A stretch of 40,495 nt of DNA. Origin: Leptospiraceae bacterium. GTDB lineage: Bacteria > Spirochaetota > Leptospiria > Leptospirales > Leptospiraceae. Where the stretch lies: the NCBI GenBank assembly GCA_025360185.1, contig JANYCR010000266.1, forward strand, positions 1-40,495, written 5' to 3'. The notes under the pieces were generated by a model that saw only the letters and a program-made list of their open reading frames with translations, did no database searches and was not told where the DNA came from. Made by a program: the position numbers and the translations under genes. Shown piece by piece: positions 22,390 through 30,568 of this stretch (position 1 is its first letter; the number at the start of each line of letters is the position of its first letter).

Positions 22390-23103
22390 TTAGACGTGGT
22401 TTAATCCAATTGCAAGCAGTGTCGGACTTTCTAAATTAGAATTTTTTATTTCTTCAATCGCATTCGAAAGTGTAGTCTTTATTATCCGCTGATTGGCTCT
22501 ACCTAAGTTACTCGCTGCAATAAATGAGGTTTCGGGTGGTTTGCCGGATTCAAGAAGGAGCTTAACGATAGATTCAACCTCGCCTAGTCCCATGAAAATA
22601 ATATGCGCATCTGTATTTGGTAGACTGACTCGTGGAATTGTTTTATCCCAATATCCACTGTAAAAGGAAATGCTTCGTGTTAATTCCCGATGTGTTAACG
22701 ATTCACCCAAAGCCTCTGCCAAAAGTTGTGGACTAGAAATTCCCATAACAAGTTTAACTTTAAATCCATGTTTTTGCATTACTTTGATTTCTTCGGAACT
22801 ACGTGCAAAAAAACTTACATCGCCCCCTTTGAGGCGAACAACTTTCATATCTATAAGTGCATATTTCAATAGAAGTTCATTTATTTCACTCTGTTTTTTC
22901 TCGTGAAATCCTCTTCGTTTTCCAACCGCCTCCCAAATAGCTTGCGGATAATATTCTTTTAGCGTATCTAGTTTTGAATCATATAGAATAATTTCTGCCT
23001 GAGAAAGAATAAAATGTGCTTCTAAAGTTAGATTTTTAACATCGCCCGAACCCGCCCCAACGAGATAAACAGTATTATCCTCAAACGGTATATTTATTTT
23101 CAT
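22390..23103 (-). CDS. cobA: Uroporphyrinogen-III C-methyltransferase (SUMT)
   Basis: A 237-residue tetrapyrrole methylase. The family motifs are present: VYLVGAGSGDVKNLTLEA at the N-terminus (SAM loop), VRLKGGD, GISSPQLLAEALGESLTHR, then HIIFMGLGEVESI and the C-terminal LLAIGLNHV. It adds two methyl groups to uroporphyrinogen III to give precorrin-2, the first committed step to siroheme. The segment after VRLKGGD reads VSFFARSSEE rather than the usual PFVFGRGGEE, so it is somewhat divergent. It is the last gene of the sulfate reduction locus, 59 nt after the Met8-like gene; siroheme is the cofactor of the sulfite reductase encoded at the other end. Confidence 0.88.
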   Translation of the reverse strand: MKINIPFEDNTVYLVGAGSGDVKNLTLEAHFILSQAEIILYDSKLDTLKEYYPQAIWEAVGKRRGFHEKKQSEINELLLKYALIDMKVVRLKGGDVSFFARSSEEIKVMQKHGFKVKLVMGISSPQLLAEALGESLTHRELTRSISFYSGYWDKTIPRVSLPNTDAHIIFMGLGEVESIVKLLLESGKPPETSFIAASNLGRANQRIIKTTLSNAIEEIKNSNLESPTLLAIGLNHV

Positions 23104-23162: not shown

Positions 23163-23699
23163 TCAAAATTGCAATTTCCTCGCTTCTCTTTGTTTTGCCA
23201 TTTCCCCGACCCTGTTGTCCAAATCAGGCAAATCAAGCTTAACCTCTATTTCCTGACGGATCATTTTAGCTCCACCAGGAGCTCGTCCATATGTAGAAAT
23301 AAAGATACTAAAATTCTCTTGGATTAATGTCGAAGCAGAAATGAAATCTGAATCTTCTACCTTGTCGATAAAATTTATGAGAACATTTCTTTCTCGTGCT
23401 TCTTTTAGAATTTCTCGTTCAACGTCTCGGTCGTTTACTCCCGAATAGACTACATCGAATTCTTTTAAGTCTCCGTATTCATATTTTCGATAAATAAAAT
23501 CAATCCAGCCTAAAGAATGAAACTCTTCGATAAATTCGGGGGAAATGGCTGTTATCCTTGTTCCTAGTTGTGAAAGAGTTCTGAGTTTTTCTGCACTTGC
23601 CTTTCCTCCTCCCAGTAACAAAATTTTTTTATTCGTTACATCTAGCATCATCGGAAGGTATTTTCGATTCAGATTAAATCTCCCTCTATAATCATGCAT
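23163..23699 (-). CDS. Precorrin-2 dehydrogenase / siroheme ferrochelatase
   Basis: A 178-residue Met8/CysG-N-type protein. The NAD-binding region KKILLLGGGKASAEKL begins near residue 24, followed by ITAISPEF, the FDVVYSGVNDRD segment and FSIFISTYGRAPGGAKMIR, the classical C-terminal helical region. It oxidises precorrin-2 and inserts iron to make siroheme. It is shorter than typical family members (about 200-220), ending soon after the helical region, so the ferrochelatase portion may be reduced. The ATG at 23699 overlaps the cysN end by 31 nt; the preceding residues RKYLPMMLD match the family start, so this start is kept. Acts between CobA and the sulfite reductase. Confidence 0.85.
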   Translation of the reverse strand: MHDYRGRFNLNRKYLPMMLDVTNKKILLLGGGKASAEKLRTLSQLGTRITAISPEFIEEFHSLGWIDFIYRKYEYGDLKEFDVVYSGVNDRDVEREILKEARERNVLINFIDKVEDSDFISASTLIQENFSIFISTYGRAPGGAKMIRQEIEVKLDLPDLDNRVGEMAKQREARKLQF

Positions 23700-24958
23700 G
23701 CACCGGATGTCTGATTGGTTCCTTCATCAATCAGAATACAGGCTCCAGTTCCACGATTCGTTGCGTACTCGTCATAAAAAATTGGTTTCGCTGTTTTAAC
23801 AATAATTTTGGCAATATCGTTTAATTCCAATGCGTCGATACCTTCGATTTTTTCAAGAGTGTTAATATTGATTTTATACTTAATTTCTTTTACGATACAC
23901 TTAACAGAATTTGTTGTATGACGTAATAGGTATTTGCCTCCGGATTGCATTTTCTTTGCATCCATCCAGCATACATAGGCTTCGAATTCCTGGGTCGTAA
24001 CGGGTAATTTTTCTTTTACTAACATGTCTCCGCGACTAACATCGACTTCATCTTCCAAACGAATTGCCACTGACATAGGAGGATACGCTTCATTTACCTC
24101 CCCTTCTAGAGTATCAATCGCCTTGATCTTTGACTTCGTTCCTGAAGGAAATACTGTAACTATATCACCCTTTTTAAATACGCCTGAGTTCACCATCCCT
24201 GCATAGGCTCTATAATCATGATATTCATTGGCGATTGGTCGAATCACCCATTGAACAGGAAATCGAGGTAAATCATAATTATGCGACTTATCAATATCGA
24301 CATTTTCTAAATATTGAATTAAAGAAGAGCCTTTATACCATGGCATATTAGAGGAAGGGTCAACTACATTATCTCCATTGAGAGCAGAAATAGGAATGAA
24401 ATTAATTTCTTTAATTCCCATTTTTTCAATTAACGGCTTTGCGAATTTTAAATAGTCTGCTTTGATTTTTTCAAACACTTCTTCAGAATAATCTACAAGG
24501 TCTAATTTGTTTATGCAAACAGTAATATAAGGAATATCTAATAGAGCAACTAAGAATGTATGGCGATAAGTTTGTTCAATGACTCCCTTTCTTGCGTCGA
24601 TTAAAATAATTGCCAGGTTGGCAGTCGATGCTCCTGTTACCATGTTGCGGGTATACTGAATATGCCCCGGAGCATCAGCAATTATAAATTTTCTTTTCGG
24701 AGTAGCAAAGTATTTATAGGCAATATCAATCGTTATCCCCTGCTCTCTTTCTGCTTTCAGCCCATCAGTAAGTAAGGCTAAGTTAGTGTAACCGTCACCT
24801 CGTCTTTCGCTAGATTTCTCAATTGCATCCATTTGGTCATCGAAAATTTGTTTACTGTCAAAAAGAAGTCTTCCAATCAATGTACTTTTTCCATCATCTA
24901 CGCTGCCCGCTGTGATAAAGCGAAGCATATCCATATTCATATAAGTTTCTGTGTTCAT
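23669..24958 (-). CDS. cysN: Sulfate adenylyltransferase GTPase subunit CysN
   Basis: A 429-residue translation-factor-like GTPase. G1 is GSVDDGKS at residues 18-25, the effector region has REQGITIDIAY, G3 is DAPGH and G4 is NKLDLVD; beta-barrel domains follow. It couples GTP hydrolysis to APS formation by CysD. There is no APS-kinase (CysC) domain at the C-terminus, so this is the unfused form. The ATG at 24958 has AAAAGG about 7 nt upstream. It lies 12 nt downstream of vapC, which together with vapB separates it from its partner gene cysD. Its transcription may depend on read-through across the toxin-antitoxin genes. Confidence 0.96.
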   Translation of the reverse strand: MNTETYMNMDMLRFITAGSVDDGKSTLIGRLLFDSKQIFDDQMDAIEKSSERRGDGYTNLALLTDGLKAEREQGITIDIAYKYFATPKRKFIIADAPGHIQYTRNMVTGASTANLAIILIDARKGVIEQTYRHTFLVALLDIPYITVCINKLDLVDYSEEVFEKIKADYLKFAKPLIEKMGIKEINFIPISALNGDNVVDPSSNMPWYKGSSLIQYLENVDIDKSHNYDLPRFPVQWVIRPIANEYHDYRAYAGMVNSGVFKKGDIVTVFPSGTKSKIKAIDTLEGEVNEAYPPMSVAIRLEDEVDVSRGDMLVKEKLPVTTQEFEAYVCWMDAKKMQSGGKYLLRHTTNSVKCIVKEIKYKININTLEKIEGIDALELNDIAKIIVKTAKPIFYDEYATNRGTGACILIDEGTNQTSGACMIIEGDLI

Positions 24959-24970
24959 TTTTTTGCCTTT

Positions 24971-25378
24971 TTATTTAGGGGAAATCATACTTATTCTTTT
25001 ACTTCGATGTATTCGATAAATTTGAAAGTCACTATCTGTTGTCAGAATTATCCCACCTTTTATTAACTCTAACATTCTTACAAGAGATGCATCAGCTAGA
25101 GAAACTTTTTGGGTCTTATATTTTGACAGGGTTTGACCAACTTCTTTTACATGATCACCGAGGCTAAATGGAATTTGTATATAGCCATCTTCTATCATTT
25201 TTAAAATTGCTTCATCCCCACCACTTCCCTGAAGAAGATAACAGCATTCTGCCACTACGGCTTCGCAAGTCAATAAAGGAGGAGTTACCCTATCTAATTC
25301 TTTGCAAGCCCATTCATGTAAGTTATCTCGTCGATTAAGATAAGCAACTAAAACACCTGTATCGACAACGTATTTCAT
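24971..25378 (-). CDS. vapC: PIN-domain toxin (VapC-like)
   Basis: A 135-residue PIN-domain ribonuclease. The acidic active-site residues are in place: Asp6 in VVDTGVL, Glu44 in VVAE, Asp96 in SLADASLV and Asp115/117 in TTDSDF. Proteins of this size paired with a small ribbon-helix-helix protein are toxins that cut tRNA or rRNA when freed from the antitoxin. The start overlaps the antitoxin stop by four bases (ATGA at 25375-25378), the usual coupling for such modules. It lies in the same orientation between cysD and cysN. The pairing and toxin call are good; the RNA target is unknown. Confidence 0.88.
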   Translation of the reverse strand: MKYVVDTGVLVAYLNRRDNLHEWACKELDRVTPPLLTCEAVVAECCYLLQGSGGDEAILKMIEDGYIQIPFSLGDHVKEVGQTLSKYKTQKVSLADASLVRMLELIKGGIILTTDSDFQIYRIHRSKRISMISPK

Positions 25379-25629
25379 CGACCGAAACCTATTAAATGTT
25401 GTTTGTTTGTAGATAAATCTGGCGCAAGAGAAACTAAACCGCGATATTTTTTGGTCTTTTCGGCAAAGGAAGATTTACTTTCTGTATGTATCTTTGTCAT
25501 ATAATCAAGAATTGCATCTCGAACAAAAGCTGATTGAGTTATATCCAAATCTTCCGTTAAAGTTTGAATATCTTCAAGCATATCCTCGGTTATTTTCATG
25601 GTAATAGTTTTTAAATTCATTCGATTCAT
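25375..25629 (-). CDS. vapB: Ribbon-helix-helix antitoxin (VapB-like)
   Basis: An 84-residue protein (an ATG three codons later at 25620 is an alternative start). The N-terminal 45 residues are a ribbon-helix-helix DNA-binding domain: strand LKTITMKIT, helix EDMLEDIQTLTEDL, turn DITQ, helix SAFVRDAILDYM. The C-terminal Lys/Ser/Leu-rich tail would wrap and block the PIN toxin. GGGAG lies about 15 nt upstream, a loose fit. A perfect palindrome overlapping a promoter just upstream is the expected autoregulatory operator for this kind of antitoxin. It is translationally coupled to vapC. Confidence 0.85.
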   Translation of the reverse strand: MNRMNLKTITMKITEDMLEDIQTLTEDLDITQSAFVRDAILDYMTKIHTESKSSFAEKTKKYRGLVSLAPDLSTNKQHLIGFGR

Positions 25630-25647
25630 AGCTTTTAAAAATCTCCC

Positions 25648-25690
25648 GGTATTACTTTTTTAACAATAAGTAATACCTGTATTTTGTCAA
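25648..25690 (-). promoter_or_regulatory. vapBC promoter with perfect palindromic operator
   Basis: On the minus strand TTGACA (25685-25690) and TATTGT (25663-25668) are 16 nt apart, a good -35/-10 pair. The arms GGTATTACTT (25648-25657) and AAGTAATACC (25668-25677) form a perfect 10-bp inverted repeat with a 10-nt spacer that touches and surrounds the -10. It ends 19 nt before the vapB start. This is the layout of an antitoxin-repressed promoter; binding by VapB is inferred. Confidence 0.72.
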
Positions 25691-25707: not shown

Positions 25708-26613
25708 CTAAAAATAACCCTCTCTTTTTCTTTCTTCCATTGCGGCTTCCGAGCGTTTATCATCTGCACGACCACCTCTTTCTGTGACACGAGCAGAGGC
25801 TACTTCTTGTATAATCTCAGTGAGATTTGATGCGTTAGAAATAACTGCTCCTGTGCAAGTCATGTCCCCTACCGTTCGATAACGAACCTGCATCTCTTTT
25901 ACTTCATCATTTACGTCTGGAAGCACTACATCTGAAACGCTAAGAAGCATATTGTCATGCATAAATAAATTTCTTTTATGAGTAAAATAAATACTTGGGA
26001 TGGCAAGATTTTCTTTTAAAATATACTGCCACACATCCATTTCTGTCCAATTGCTAATGGGGAAAACGCGTATATGCTCACCCTTTTGAATTTTCCCATT
26101 GTATAAATCCCAGAGCTCTGGTCTTTGTTTTTTAGGCTCCCATTGACCAAATTCATCTCGAAAAGAAAAAATTCTTTCTTTCGCGCGAGCCTTCTCTTCA
26201 TCTCTTCTAGCTCCACCGAAAGCTGCATCGAATTTAAATTCTTCTAAAGCATCAAGAAGAGTTATAGTTTGCAATTTATTTCTACTCGGAATTCTTCCAG
26301 TTTCTTCAACTGCCTTACCTTGGTTAATAGAGTCTTGCACATAACGTATAATTAGTCTCTCATCAATTCGCTTTACCATTTCATCGCGAAATGTAATCGT
26401 CTCGGGAAAATTATGACCTGTATCAATATGAAGTAGCGGAAAAGGAAACTTAGCCGGTCGAAAGGCTTTTTCTGCAAGGCGGACAAGGGTAATAGAATCT
26501 TTTCCCCCTGAAAATAAAAGCACTGGCTTTTCAAATTGAGCAGCAACCTCTCTCATTATATAAATCGACTCTGCTTCCAATTCTTGTAAATGATTCAAAT
26601 GATACTTACTCAA
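25708..26613 (-). CDS. cysD: Sulfate adenylyltransferase subunit CysD
   Basis: A 301-residue PP-loop ATP pyrophosphatase, the normal CysD length. SGGKDS is at residues 35-40; the conserved IDTGHNFPET, FGGARRDEEKARAKER and FPISNWTEMDVWQYI segments all follow, along with TVGDMTCTGAV near the end. With CysN it makes adenosine 5'-phosphosulfate from sulfate and ATP in the cytoplasm. It lies 52 nt after cysH and is followed by the vapBC promoter region, so the usual cysD-cysN adjacency is broken by the toxin-antitoxin pair. Confidence 0.96.
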   Translation of the reverse strand: MSKYHLNHLQELEAESIYIMREVAAQFEKPVLLFSGGKDSITLVRLAEKAFRPAKFPFPLLHIDTGHNFPETITFRDEMVKRIDERLIIRYVQDSINQGKAVEETGRIPSRNKLQTITLLDALEEFKFDAAFGGARRDEEKARAKERIFSFRDEFGQWEPKKQRPELWDLYNGKIQKGEHIRVFPISNWTEMDVWQYILKENLAIPSIYFTHKRNLFMHDNMLLSVSDVVLPDVNDEVKEMQVRYRTVGDMTCTGAVISNASNLTEIIQEVASARVTERGGRADDKRSEAAMEERKREGYF

Positions 26614-26665: not shown

Positions 26666-27415
26666 TTAGACAAACATTGATTTGTCGCTCTTTGGCTTAT
26701 TCGGAACTAGTTTTCCATCTTGCCAATGAAGCCCACATTCTTTTGTAGCAGGATCTTCCCACCACCATCTTCCTGCTCTTGAGTCTTCGCCTTCTTCAAT
26801 TGAACGCGTGCAAGGAGCACAACCGATACTAGGATACCCTTTGTCATGAAGTTCATTGTAGGGAATATTTTTTTCTTTGATATAATCCCAAACTTGTTTT
26901 TCCGTCCAATTCAAAAGTGGATTTATTTTTAGGACTGAATACTTTTCATCCCATTCTGCAAATTTCATATCAGAGCGAGTAACAGATTGTTCTTTTCTGA
27001 GACCTGTAATCCAAAGAGATTTATCTTTCATTGCACGCGCGAGTGGTTCTAACTTTCTTACAGAACAACATTCTTTTCTATTTTCAATGCTTTCATAAAA
27101 GAGGTTAATACCCTTTTCCCGCACCATTTTCTCAACTGATATGTAATCAGGGAATTGAACTTGAATTTTGATATCGTATTTTTTTTCCGTATCTTCTATC
27201 GTTTTATAGGTCTCATACGGCAAACGACCAGTATCCAGTGTAACAATTTGAACAGTATTATCAATGCTCATAATCAAGTCAGTTAATACTTGATCTTCGG
27301 CACCAAGGCTAGAAGAAAACAAAACTCCGCCTTTATACTTTATCAATGCAAGCTGTAAAATTTCTTTCGTATTCGAAACTTGAAACTTTTGGTTAAATTC
27401 GTCTATATTTGTCAT
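26666..27415 (-). CDS. cysH: Adenylylsulfate (APS) reductase, CysH family
   Basis: A 249-residue assimilatory reductase. In addition to the catalytic Cys227 in ECGLH, it carries Cys116-Cys117 (ECCSVRK) and Cys199/Cys202 (GCAPC), the four ligands of the [4Fe-4S] cluster found in APS-using enzymes. PAPS-specific enzymes lack these, so the substrate is most likely APS. This agrees with the absence of an APS kinase gene in the locus. The product is sulfite. It starts 14 nt after the sulfite reductase gene ends and precedes cysD, in the order of pathway partners. Confidence 0.93.
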   Translation of the reverse strand: MTNIDEFNQKFQVSNTKEILQLALIKYKGGVLFSSSLGAEDQVLTDLIMSIDNTVQIVTLDTGRLPYETYKTIEDTEKKYDIKIQVQFPDYISVEKMVREKGINLFYESIENRKECCSVRKLEPLARAMKDKSLWITGLRKEQSVTRSDMKFAEWDEKYSVLKINPLLNWTEKQVWDYIKEKNIPYNELHDKGYPSIGCAPCTRSIEEGEDSRAGRWWWEDPATKECGLHWQDGKLVPNKPKSDKSMFV

Positions 27416-27429
27416 AGGATGAGTTAACC

Positions 27430-29028
27430 TTACTCTCCTTTCGAGATGGCTATTCCCAATAATTCTGCAACTTGTTCTTTCTCATAATCTTTATAGAAAT
27501 CACGAAAAGATTGCCCATTCACTTTCTTTGCATAATACTGATTAGCCAGTTTCTCTACGATCGGACCACATTGGTCGGCTTTCACTTTCAAAACACTGTG
27601 AGTAAAAGATGGATTATTCCCTATAGAGCCACCGAGGTGTAGCATGTAGGCTTCTTCCATTTCATCGTTTTCCCCTTTTGTTTTTCCCCCGATGAACCCG
27701 ATGTCTGCAATAGAATATTGAGAACAGCTATTTGTGCAACCAGAGAAGTGGATATTAATATTATCCACGCTTACATTTTTTTCATTTAAGTAGTCGATCA
27801 GTTTTGCTGTTCTATTTTTTGTTTCCACAATGGCAAGGTTACAAAACTCGGAGCCGGTGCAGGAAACGATTCGATTATGTGTTTGCTTTGGGCTATAAAT
27901 TCCTGAATCTTCTAGAGCTTTAACAGCGCCCGCAACGTTTGCGTCTGGTATTCCCAGGATTAGAACATTTTGTTTATTTGTATTTCGTAGAAGTCCATTT
28001 CCAAATTCTTCCGCAATATCACAAAGCTTTTTGAGTTGATCCCCATTTAATCTTCCTACTTTAATAGGCACTCCAATAAAATTCATTCCTGGTTGTTTCA
28101 TTTTATTAGGACCGAGAGGATCTGAATTTTTCTCGACAACTTGCGGATTAGGATAGTCTGTTAACTTGTATCCAAGTTTTTTTTCTAACTCTTCGCGCAT
28201 TTTTTCATGACCCCAGGCATCCATTAAAAATTTCATTCTTGACTTACGGCGATTTTCTCTGTTTCCATGATCTCGGTAAAGCTCTGTTAGCCCCGCACAT
28301 ACAGCTAAAACTTCATTGTCATCTTTTAAGAAAACATTTAACCATTTAGAAAAATAAGGATTTGTAGAAAGTCCCCCGCCTACACGAATTGTATATCCAA
28401 ATTTTGTTTCACCGTTTACTTCTAATTTTGCGCCAACTATTCCAATACAATTAATCTCTGGTTGTGCAAGATTATGCGGCGCTCCTGAAATAGAAACCTT
28501 AAACTTGCGAGGTAAATCTCCCAAATCAGGACGTTCAGAAATTTCTTTTACATAACGGCTAATGATTCCGTTTGCGTTTAAATATTCCTCTGGATCAATT
28601 CCGGCAAGTGGATTTCCGGTAATATTTCTCGTTATATCACCGCACGCGCCTAGAACACCAAGACCTATTTCGTCTAGTTTATCAATGATGGGAGGTATGT
28701 CGGCTATCGTCAGCCAATGAACTTGAAAACATTGACGGGTAGTAATATCGATTAGCCCCCTAGCACGCTCGTTCGTGAACTTAGCAATCTCTCGTCCTTG
28801 CTTCGAAGTAAATTGTCCAGACGGAATTCTCATTCGCATCATAAAATAACCATCAGTCTTAGGCTTTTGCAAATAACAGCCGAACCATTTAAAACGAATA
28901 TGGTCATCTTCTGGGATTGCCTGAAAGCCTTCCTTCGCCCATTTGTCAATCTCGGGGCGTAGTTTTAAAGGATTTTTTTCCTTCTTAATTCTTTCTTCGT
29001 TTGTGATTTTGGATTCTTCTTTCGCCAC
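27430..29028 (-). CDS. sir: Siroheme-[4Fe-4S] sulfite reductase, ferredoxin type
   Basis: A 532-residue nitrite/sulfite reductase. The cluster/siroheme ligands lie in CTGSEFCN (about residues 389-395) and GCTNSCSQ (about 431-435). TRQCFQVHWL and the ACGDITRNITGNPLAG segment mark the first half-repeat. With no flavoprotein gene nearby, electrons probably come from ferredoxin. The family includes nitrite reductases; the sulfate reduction and siroheme neighbours favour sulfite. The GTG start at 29028 follows GAGGT by 7 nt. It is the first gene of the cys transcript. Confidence 0.88.
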   Translation of the reverse strand: MAKEESKITNEERIKKEKNPLKLRPEIDKWAKEGFQAIPEDDHIRFKWFGCYLQKPKTDGYFMMRMRIPSGQFTSKQGREIAKFTNERARGLIDITTRQCFQVHWLTIADIPPIIDKLDEIGLGVLGACGDITRNITGNPLAGIDPEEYLNANGIISRYVKEISERPDLGDLPRKFKVSISGAPHNLAQPEINCIGIVGAKLEVNGETKFGYTIRVGGGLSTNPYFSKWLNVFLKDDNEVLAVCAGLTELYRDHGNRENRRKSRMKFLMDAWGHEKMREELEKKLGYKLTDYPNPQVVEKNSDPLGPNKMKQPGMNFIGVPIKVGRLNGDQLKKLCDIAEEFGNGLLRNTNKQNVLILGIPDANVAGAVKALEDSGIYSPKQTHNRIVSCTGSEFCNLAIVETKNRTAKLIDYLNEKNVSVDNINIHFSGCTNSCSQYSIADIGFIGGKTKGENDEMEEAYMLHLGGSIGNNPSFTHSVLKVKADQCGPIVEKLANQYYAKKVNGQSFRDFYKDYEKEQVAELLGIAISKGE

Positions 29029-29188: not shown

Positions 29189-30568
29189 ATGGGAAAGATT
29201 AGAGATGAATTATACAATCAACTTGCAGAAAAGCCCCACCCAATTTTTGTATTTCAAAATAATTTAATCCCTGCAGCGACAATCTGGGTTGGAGTTAAAG
29301 CATGGGTTAATTACTTTCGGGAATTAAAATTAGAATCGGGCGATCGAATCATTCTTAGTTATCCGGAAAGTCCTGCCTTTGTTCACATTGTATTTGCTTG
29401 TATTTGGGAGGGGCTAACACTTATTATTTTAAAACCTGACTCTGAGAACTTAGAGCCTCTAGAATTTTTTGATGCAAAACTAATTATTACTGCCAAGGAA
29501 ATTCCCTATTCAATTCAGCCGGATAATATGGGAATGCCGCAATCTGCAAAAGAATTAAGGAAAACAAAAAAAAATAGAAACCCAGAAATTCGATTTATTT
29601 TGCAATCCTCTGGGTCAACGGGGCACCCTAAATTTATTTGTTTAGCCGAAGATGCCGTCTTTAATGTTATAGAAACACATGCTAAAATATTTGAATCTAA
29701 TAAAAACAGCGTCTTATCGGCATTACCCTGGAGCCATTGTTTTGGGTTAGTTTTGGATTTACTTTTATGCACTTTTTATTCGGAGGTAATTATTCGGGAT
29801 AGTGAAGGCGGAAGAAGTTTAGACAACTTATTTGAAAATTTCAAAAAATATGAAATCAATCATTTCTCCTCCGTCCCTTTACTCATAGAAAGAATTTTAC
29901 AGAAACAAGGAGGGTTAGAATTTTTGCAGAATCTATCTTCCGGTATCATTGGCGGAGCCCCTATTTCATCAATGATTGCAGACAAATTAAAGAATTCAAA
30001 GCTTTCTATTGGTTATGGTCAAACAGAAGCTTCGCCTGGAATTTGTCTTGGTGAAAAAGGAAAAATTTTTGCGAATTATATAGGTAACCCGTTAGGCTGT
30101 GATACTAAAATTTCAGAAGATGGAGAGCTTTTTTTTAGAGGGAAGAATGCATTTCTTGGGTATTGGCAGAATAGGCAAATAAGCATTATCCCGAAAAATG
30201 AGTGGGTACCTACTGGGGATATGGTCGAAAAAAAAGCAGAAGGGTTATTTTTTGTGGGTCGTATTAATTTCTCTTTTAAGCTTTCGAATGGACTTATGAT
30301 CCATCCGGAACCCATAGAAAAAGACTTACTAGAAAAAAACAAACTTATTTCTCATTGTATGTTATTTTTCCAGCATGAAATACAATTAATATTCTCGCAA
30401 ACATCATCAGGTTGGAACGAAGAAGAAGTTATCGCGAGTATCCGCGACTCCATTCATCCTCTACTAAAAAAAACGAGCATTACAATTAAATCTCTACCTT
30501 CCCACGATTGGGTCTATTCGGCGAAAGGAGAAATCAATCGGATAGCGATGCAGCAAAAATTAAAATAA
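29189..30568 (+). CDS. ANL-superfamily adenylate-forming enzyme
   Basis: A 459-residue AMP-forming ligase. The phosphate loop SSGSTGHPK is at 140-148, SALPWSHCFGL follows, the core A5 motif YGQTEASP starts near 276, TGDMV is the A7 motif, and SAKGEINR near the C-terminus supplies the A10 Lys. It is shorter than typical acyl-CoA synthetases (500-600), mainly in the N-terminal subdomain, and resembles stand-alone acyl- or aryl-activating enzymes. The substrate cannot be read from the sequence. No carrier protein, thioesterase or ketosynthase is adjacent. It is divergent from the cys operon across 160 bp and convergent with the response regulator. Confidence 0.82.
   Translation: MGKIRDELYNQLAEKPHPIFVFQNNLIPAATIWVGVKAWVNYFRELKLESGDRIILSYPESPAFVHIVFACIWEGLTLIILKPDSENLEPLEFFDAKLIITAKEIPYSIQPDNMGMPQSAKELRKTKKNRNPEIRFILQSSGSTGHPKFICLAEDAVFNVIETHAKIFESNKNSVLSALPWSHCFGLVLDLLLCTFYSEVIIRDSEGGRSLDNLFENFKKYEINHFSSVPLLIERILQKQGGLEFLQNLSSGIIGGAPISSMIADKLKNSKLSIGYGQTEASPGICLGEKGKIFANYIGNPLGCDTKISEDGELFFRGKNAFLGYWQNRQISIIPKNEWVPTGDMVEKKAEGLFFVGRINFSFKLSNGLMIHPEPIEKDLLEKNKLISHCMLFFQHEIQLIFSQTSSGWNEEEVIASIRDSIHPLLKKTSITIKSLPSHDWVYSAKGEINRIAMQQKLK

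Follow-up and report, generated by a model that had tools for sequence, protein, structure and literature searches.

The vapBC toxin-antitoxin module described here sits exactly between cysD and cysN, two genes of one sulfate-activating enzyme, and is encoded on the same strand. It is probably an ordinary type II VapBC, acquired horizontally, that inserted at the cysD/cysN boundary in the ancestor of a single Leptospiraceae genus and has been kept mainly as a positionally locked, self-maintaining addiction pair, not as a sulfur regulator. What is unusual is not the pair, an ordinary one, but its fixed address.

The window, by which we mean the whole 40,495-nucleotide stretch of DNA that was analysed, contains a minus-strand run in the order NirA/sulfite-reductase-like gene, cysH, cysD, vapB, vapC, cysN, siroheme dehydrogenase-like gene and uroporphyrinogen methyltransferase-like gene (Table 1). 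Both flanking proteins, CysD and CysN, are full length, so the insertion is seamless; the cysD stop is separated from the vapB ATG by 78 nt and the vapC stop from the cysN ATG by 12 nt. The earlier note had proposed that a vapBC module lies between these two genes, with no terminator after vapC. Both proposals hold: PIN and RHH_1 matches are flanked by CysD (TIGR02039) and CysN (TIGR02034), and a minus-strand scan finds no terminator-like site between 24623 and its upper end at 29300, either in the cysD-cysN interval as a whole or in the 12-nt gap before cysN. Given gaps that are 12 nt long or overlapping, vapBC is likely to be cotranscribed with its host cys genes. No riboswitch or other Rfam RNA is found in the window. 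The last 31 nt of cysN (window positions 23669-23699) are shared with the siroheme dehydrogenase-like gene, and comparable overlaps occur in genomes G002, G003 and G007.

Table 1. Features of the cys gene run and of the vapBC module, in window coordinates.
Feature	Position	Strand	Evidence or remark
Uroporphyrinogen-III C-methyltransferase-like gene, last in run	22390..23103	-	
Siroheme precorrin-2 dehydrogenase-like gene	23163..23699	-	31-nt overlap with cysN
cysN, sulfate adenylyltransferase GTPase subunit; intact downstream neighbour with an AAGG ribosome site of its own	23669..24958	-	NCBIfam TIGR02034
vapC, PIN-domain toxin, 135 aa	24971..25378	-	Pfam PF01850, alignment
vapB, antitoxin, 84 aa; N-terminal ribbon-helix-helix and C-terminal tail DLSTNKQHLIGFGR	25375..25629	-	Pfam PF01402, alignment
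Putative operator, perfect 10-bp inverted repeat GGTATTACTT-N10-AAGTAATACC	25648..25677	.	half-sites 25648-25657 and 25668-25677
vapBC promoter-like site TTGACA-16-TATTGT, overlapped by operator	25663..25690	-	10/12 matches; TTGACA invariant in four genomes
cysD, sulfate adenylyltransferase small subunit; intact upstream neighbour	25708..26613	-	NCBIfam TIGR02039
cysH, upstream section of same run	26666..27415	-	
NirA/sulfite-reductase-like gene, upstream section of same run	27430..29028	-	

By sequence criteria the module is a type II VapBC toxin-antitoxin. The vapC product matches the PIN domain (PF01850) with an E-value of 3.9e-10, and its acidic residues Asp6, Glu44, Asp96 and Asp117 are invariant in an alignment of 9 homologs. 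The match of the vapB product to RHH_1 (PF01402; E 1.9e-4) scores 21.7 bits, barely above the cut-off of 20.5, and in the VapB of G001 the RHH domain does not reach the cut-off even with its highest-scoring Pfam model; the C-terminal tail of VapB is conserved among the aligned homologs. The two genes overlap by 4 nt (ATGA). As a predicted trait of the family, VapC would act as an RNase that is neutralised by the VapB protein. The only solved chain matched by the VapC sequence is M. tuberculosis VapC26 (PDB 5x3t; E 3e-6), which is distant, so that its RNA target is not transferable. An AlphaFold model of VapC built from a 3-row alignment has a mean pLDDT of 41 and is unusable, and the PADLOC defence models give no match. 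Leptospiral VapBC modules, for example in L. interrogans, which belongs to the same family by NCBI taxonomy, likewise pair a PIN toxin with a small antitoxin, but the VapC copies on Leptospira plasmids are only ∼33% identical to the VapC here. The VapC of L. interrogans cleaves initiator tRNA (PMC4105405).

Comparisons with relatives give the insertion a clear direction. The genus comprises four genomes, all of them draft: G000, which is the genome analysed here, and G001, G002 and G003. The order cysD-vapB-vapC-cysN is found in every one of them (4/4). In a survey of junctions in 48 genomes of the class, from which G016 was left out because of a partial cysD match, cysD and cysN are adjacent at 29 junctions outside the genus, where the gaps range from -13 to 208 nt, with a median of 17, and leave no room for vapBC; in G011 a long distance separates cysD from cysN. 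The closest outside genome with cysDN, that of the sister genus G007, carries the sequence TAATG, in which the cysD stop overlaps the cysN start. The earlier note had suggested an insertion between cysD and cysN, and the 29 junctions at which these genes adjoin each other without the module agree with this; it had also named an ancient order fixed across the whole family as the finding that would speak against it. The order is instead old within the genus yet, as judged from these gene neighbourhoods, derived, being fixed there and absent elsewhere in the family and class. The four VapC proteins form one clade, supported at 100/99 in a tree with homologs from cyanobacteria, viral contigs and Spirochaetota (an earlier tree gave 96/99), and a single insertion in the genus ancestor is thus the simplest reading.

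The module has since been kept intact. Between G002 and G003, dN/dS is ∼0.05 for vapB and for vapC, and between G000 and G003 dN is 0.08-0.09, with dS near saturation. These substitution patterns indicate purifying selection on both genes, which is also compatible with a host function.

The promoter that the earlier note had assigned to the module, a TTGACA/TATTGT pair with a perfect 10-bp inverted repeat lying across it, is present, and its TTGACA is invariant in the four genus genomes. The promoter score is not significant alone, since 29 such sites are found where 22 are expected. Two perfect 10-bp inverted repeats occur in the 40-kb window, the putative operator being one of them, and a shuffled 78-nt gap holds such a repeat in 138 of 20000 cases (0.7%). 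Stronger proof than either promoter score or repeat rarity comes from conservation across relatives in sequence comparison: the core half-sites, GTATTAC and GTAATAC, lie 21 bp apart centre to centre, and a GTAWTAC pair at a distance of 21-22 bp is kept in all four genus genomes despite the low identity of the G001 VapB (44%). An inverted-repeat operator thus lies over the module promoter as a predicted site of autoregulation. The exact operator occurs once in G000 (5.8 Mb), and a looser pattern, applied to the four genomes, adds six matches in G001 and a single one in G003 beyond the cys locus. These extra matches were considered as a possible VapB regulon and rejected, since on inspection they sit in coding stretches, such as a ribosomal protein L6-like gene, and are attributed to chance. 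With the operator found elsewhere only by chance inside genes, there is no sign of a VapB regulon outside the module.

A probable course of events can be drawn from these features. The ancestor of the genus would have acquired VapBC horizontally, the module slotting in without a scar where cysD meets cysN. The internal promoter is probably shut when dimers of VapB, either by themselves or together with VapC, occupy the pair of GTAWTAC sites, which are separated by two turns of the helix; repression of its own promoter by a VapB-type antitoxin, alone or with the toxin, is standard for the family (PMC3920265). Loss of VapB would both free VapC to cut RNA and open the promoter. Transcripts from the internal promoter, together with read-through from the upstream cys promoter, would extend into cysN and keep it expressed. 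Persistence is then most likely that of a self-maintaining addiction pair at a site where imprecise deletion would also break the assimilation operon. The alternative offered in the earlier note, that the cell may have become addicted to the locus, would fit.

Toxin-antitoxin pairs inside metabolic operons are already known; what is new here is this locus, and its main merit is the well-polarised history of the insertion. A search of the available papers for vapBC together with cysN gave nothing relevant. The autoregulated type II mazEF module, located after relA in E. coli, is transcribed with host genes, as vapBC probably is, but it has a MazF-type toxin and does not split the subunits of one enzyme. 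The product of mazG, which is cotranscribed with mazEF in E. coli, is reported to act on mazEF itself (PMC3920265). A closer parallel is the Sll1225-Ssl2420 pair inside the hoxEFUYH hydrogenase operon of Synechocystis, for which a role in stabilising the operon has been suggested (PMC4963859). As with vapBC here, the genes around it encode subunits of a single metabolic enzyme, and the arrangement is conserved in a close relative. It differs in the operon that it occupies and in the presence of a second TA-associated gene, and it is described within a longer transcription unit, whereas vapBC has a conserved promoter and operator of its own. By its placement the vapBC module is a toxin-antitoxin resident of the hox type, between the genes of one pathway, on their strand and with no terminator.

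By analogy with the hox pair, vapBC might serve mainly to stabilise the cys operon, cells that lose the segment being poisoned. Its position within the operon and its long retention would agree with this, as does the published suggestion for hoxEFUYH, but the operon is kept at 29 other junctions that have no toxin-antitoxin pair, showing that the pair is not needed for its maintenance, and in G001 the siroheme genes stand apart from the cluster despite the presence of vapBC. We regard this explanation as unlikely, while ranking it first among the alternatives to a positionally locked addiction pair.

Less probable still, and in our view doubtful, is co-option of the module, in which VapBC occupancy of the internal promoter would set the CysN:CysD balance and so link toxin state and growth arrest to sulfate assimilation; loss of antitoxin under stress would raise cysN, and induction of the cys genes would raise vapBC. 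Retention and selection in all four genomes are compatible with such a role, as are the missing terminator before cysN, the replacement of a direct CysD-CysN stop/start overlap of the kind seen in G007, and an ATGA overlap of vapC with cysN in G001, which is consistent with translational coupling. Passive insertion would predict every one of these features too, however, and no other sulfur gene has the operator. The earlier note had gone further and suggested that cysN and the siroheme genes could come under antitoxin control. As a function of the module this was not upheld: the operator is found only at its own locus, in G001 cysN is not followed by the siroheme genes, and transcription from the upstream cys genes can read through. 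That toxin state controls sulfur assimilation is thus possible, but unsupported.

The divergence of G001 raises the question of a second arrival. Its VapC is only 53% identical to those of the other genus members and its VapB 44%, against 74% for CysN, and it is conceivable, from these low values, that one VapBC has been replaced by another at the same spot. If the cysD-cysN junction were a hotspot, G001 and the ancestor of G000, G002 and G003 could have received VapBC separately; the low VapBC identity relative to CysD and CysN, and the additional repeat sequence between cysD and vapB in G001, would fit such a history. Already disfavoured by the placement of all four VapCs in one clade to the exclusion of all sampled relatives, and by the sameness of antitoxin architecture, operator motif and spacing, and slot, this explanation is very improbable. 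An artefact of assembly or binning, conceivable for G000, a draft metagenome genome of 623 contigs with an estimated contamination of 7%, has a negligible chance of being correct and is refuted by the identical arrangement in three other assemblies, two of which are public Leptospiraceae records from separate projects (UBA2033 and Go_SlAct_bin_98).

The single capture of an addiction pair, as preferred here, makes the locus a clean, polarised natural case of a toxin-antitoxin module in a housekeeping operon, one that offers a known empty site, insertion branch and conserved operator. The question of why chromosomal toxin-antitoxin modules are retained thereby becomes testable at one place. If the pair is passive, it shows positional lock-in; if it is not, a toxin-antitoxin module would have been recruited as a metabolic regulator.

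The G001 cys cluster has several further peculiarities. A 551-aa open reading frame that has no Pfam match (L031:11602-13257) directly follows cysN, where the siroheme genes would be. The cysD-vapB gap is 353 nt long (L031:9313-9665) and contains a ∼90-bp dispersed repeat, with ∼40 scored copies in G001 and almost none in the three other genus genomes, as well as a long, perfect, A/T-rich hairpin. This hairpin was considered as a terminator and rejected, as no T-run lies behind it. Upstream of the sulfite-reductase-like gene there is a second vapBC-like pair (L031:4745-5379), made up of a small antitoxin-like open reading frame and a PIN domain for which no ATG start is obvious, so that the cluster has toxin-antitoxin pairs in two places.

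The nearest relatives of VapC are PIN proteins encoded on cyanobacterial plasmids, with identities of up to 51%; some of these genes adjoin transposases or an integrase, and homologs also occur in putative viral contigs. Phage records give no match to VapC. The PIN/DUF2281 pairs of cyanobacteria share related plasmid VapCs and the antitoxin tail DLSTN..GxG with the module here, but the N-terminus of their antitoxins is non-RHH, just one of those examined being annotated as DUF2281. Two of the viral-contig relatives have antitoxins that are RHH-like in appearance and carry a similar tail. Together these architectures suggest domain swapping among the antitoxins of VapC relatives, in which a common toxin-binding tail is joined to differing DNA-binding domains.

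PIN genes number 21-51 per genome in the genus, compared with 1-27 among the family's four remaining genomes. Some 33 other PIN loci were examined in G000 and G001; a few have a close downstream gene on the same strand, and at none was a toxin-antitoxin pair seen to split the genes of one enzyme. At another PIN toxin-antitoxin pair in G000 (contig C144, L091:1284-2419), a gene with a weak HD_4 match follows 18 nt downstream, and its product could be a small alarmone-hydrolase-like protein.
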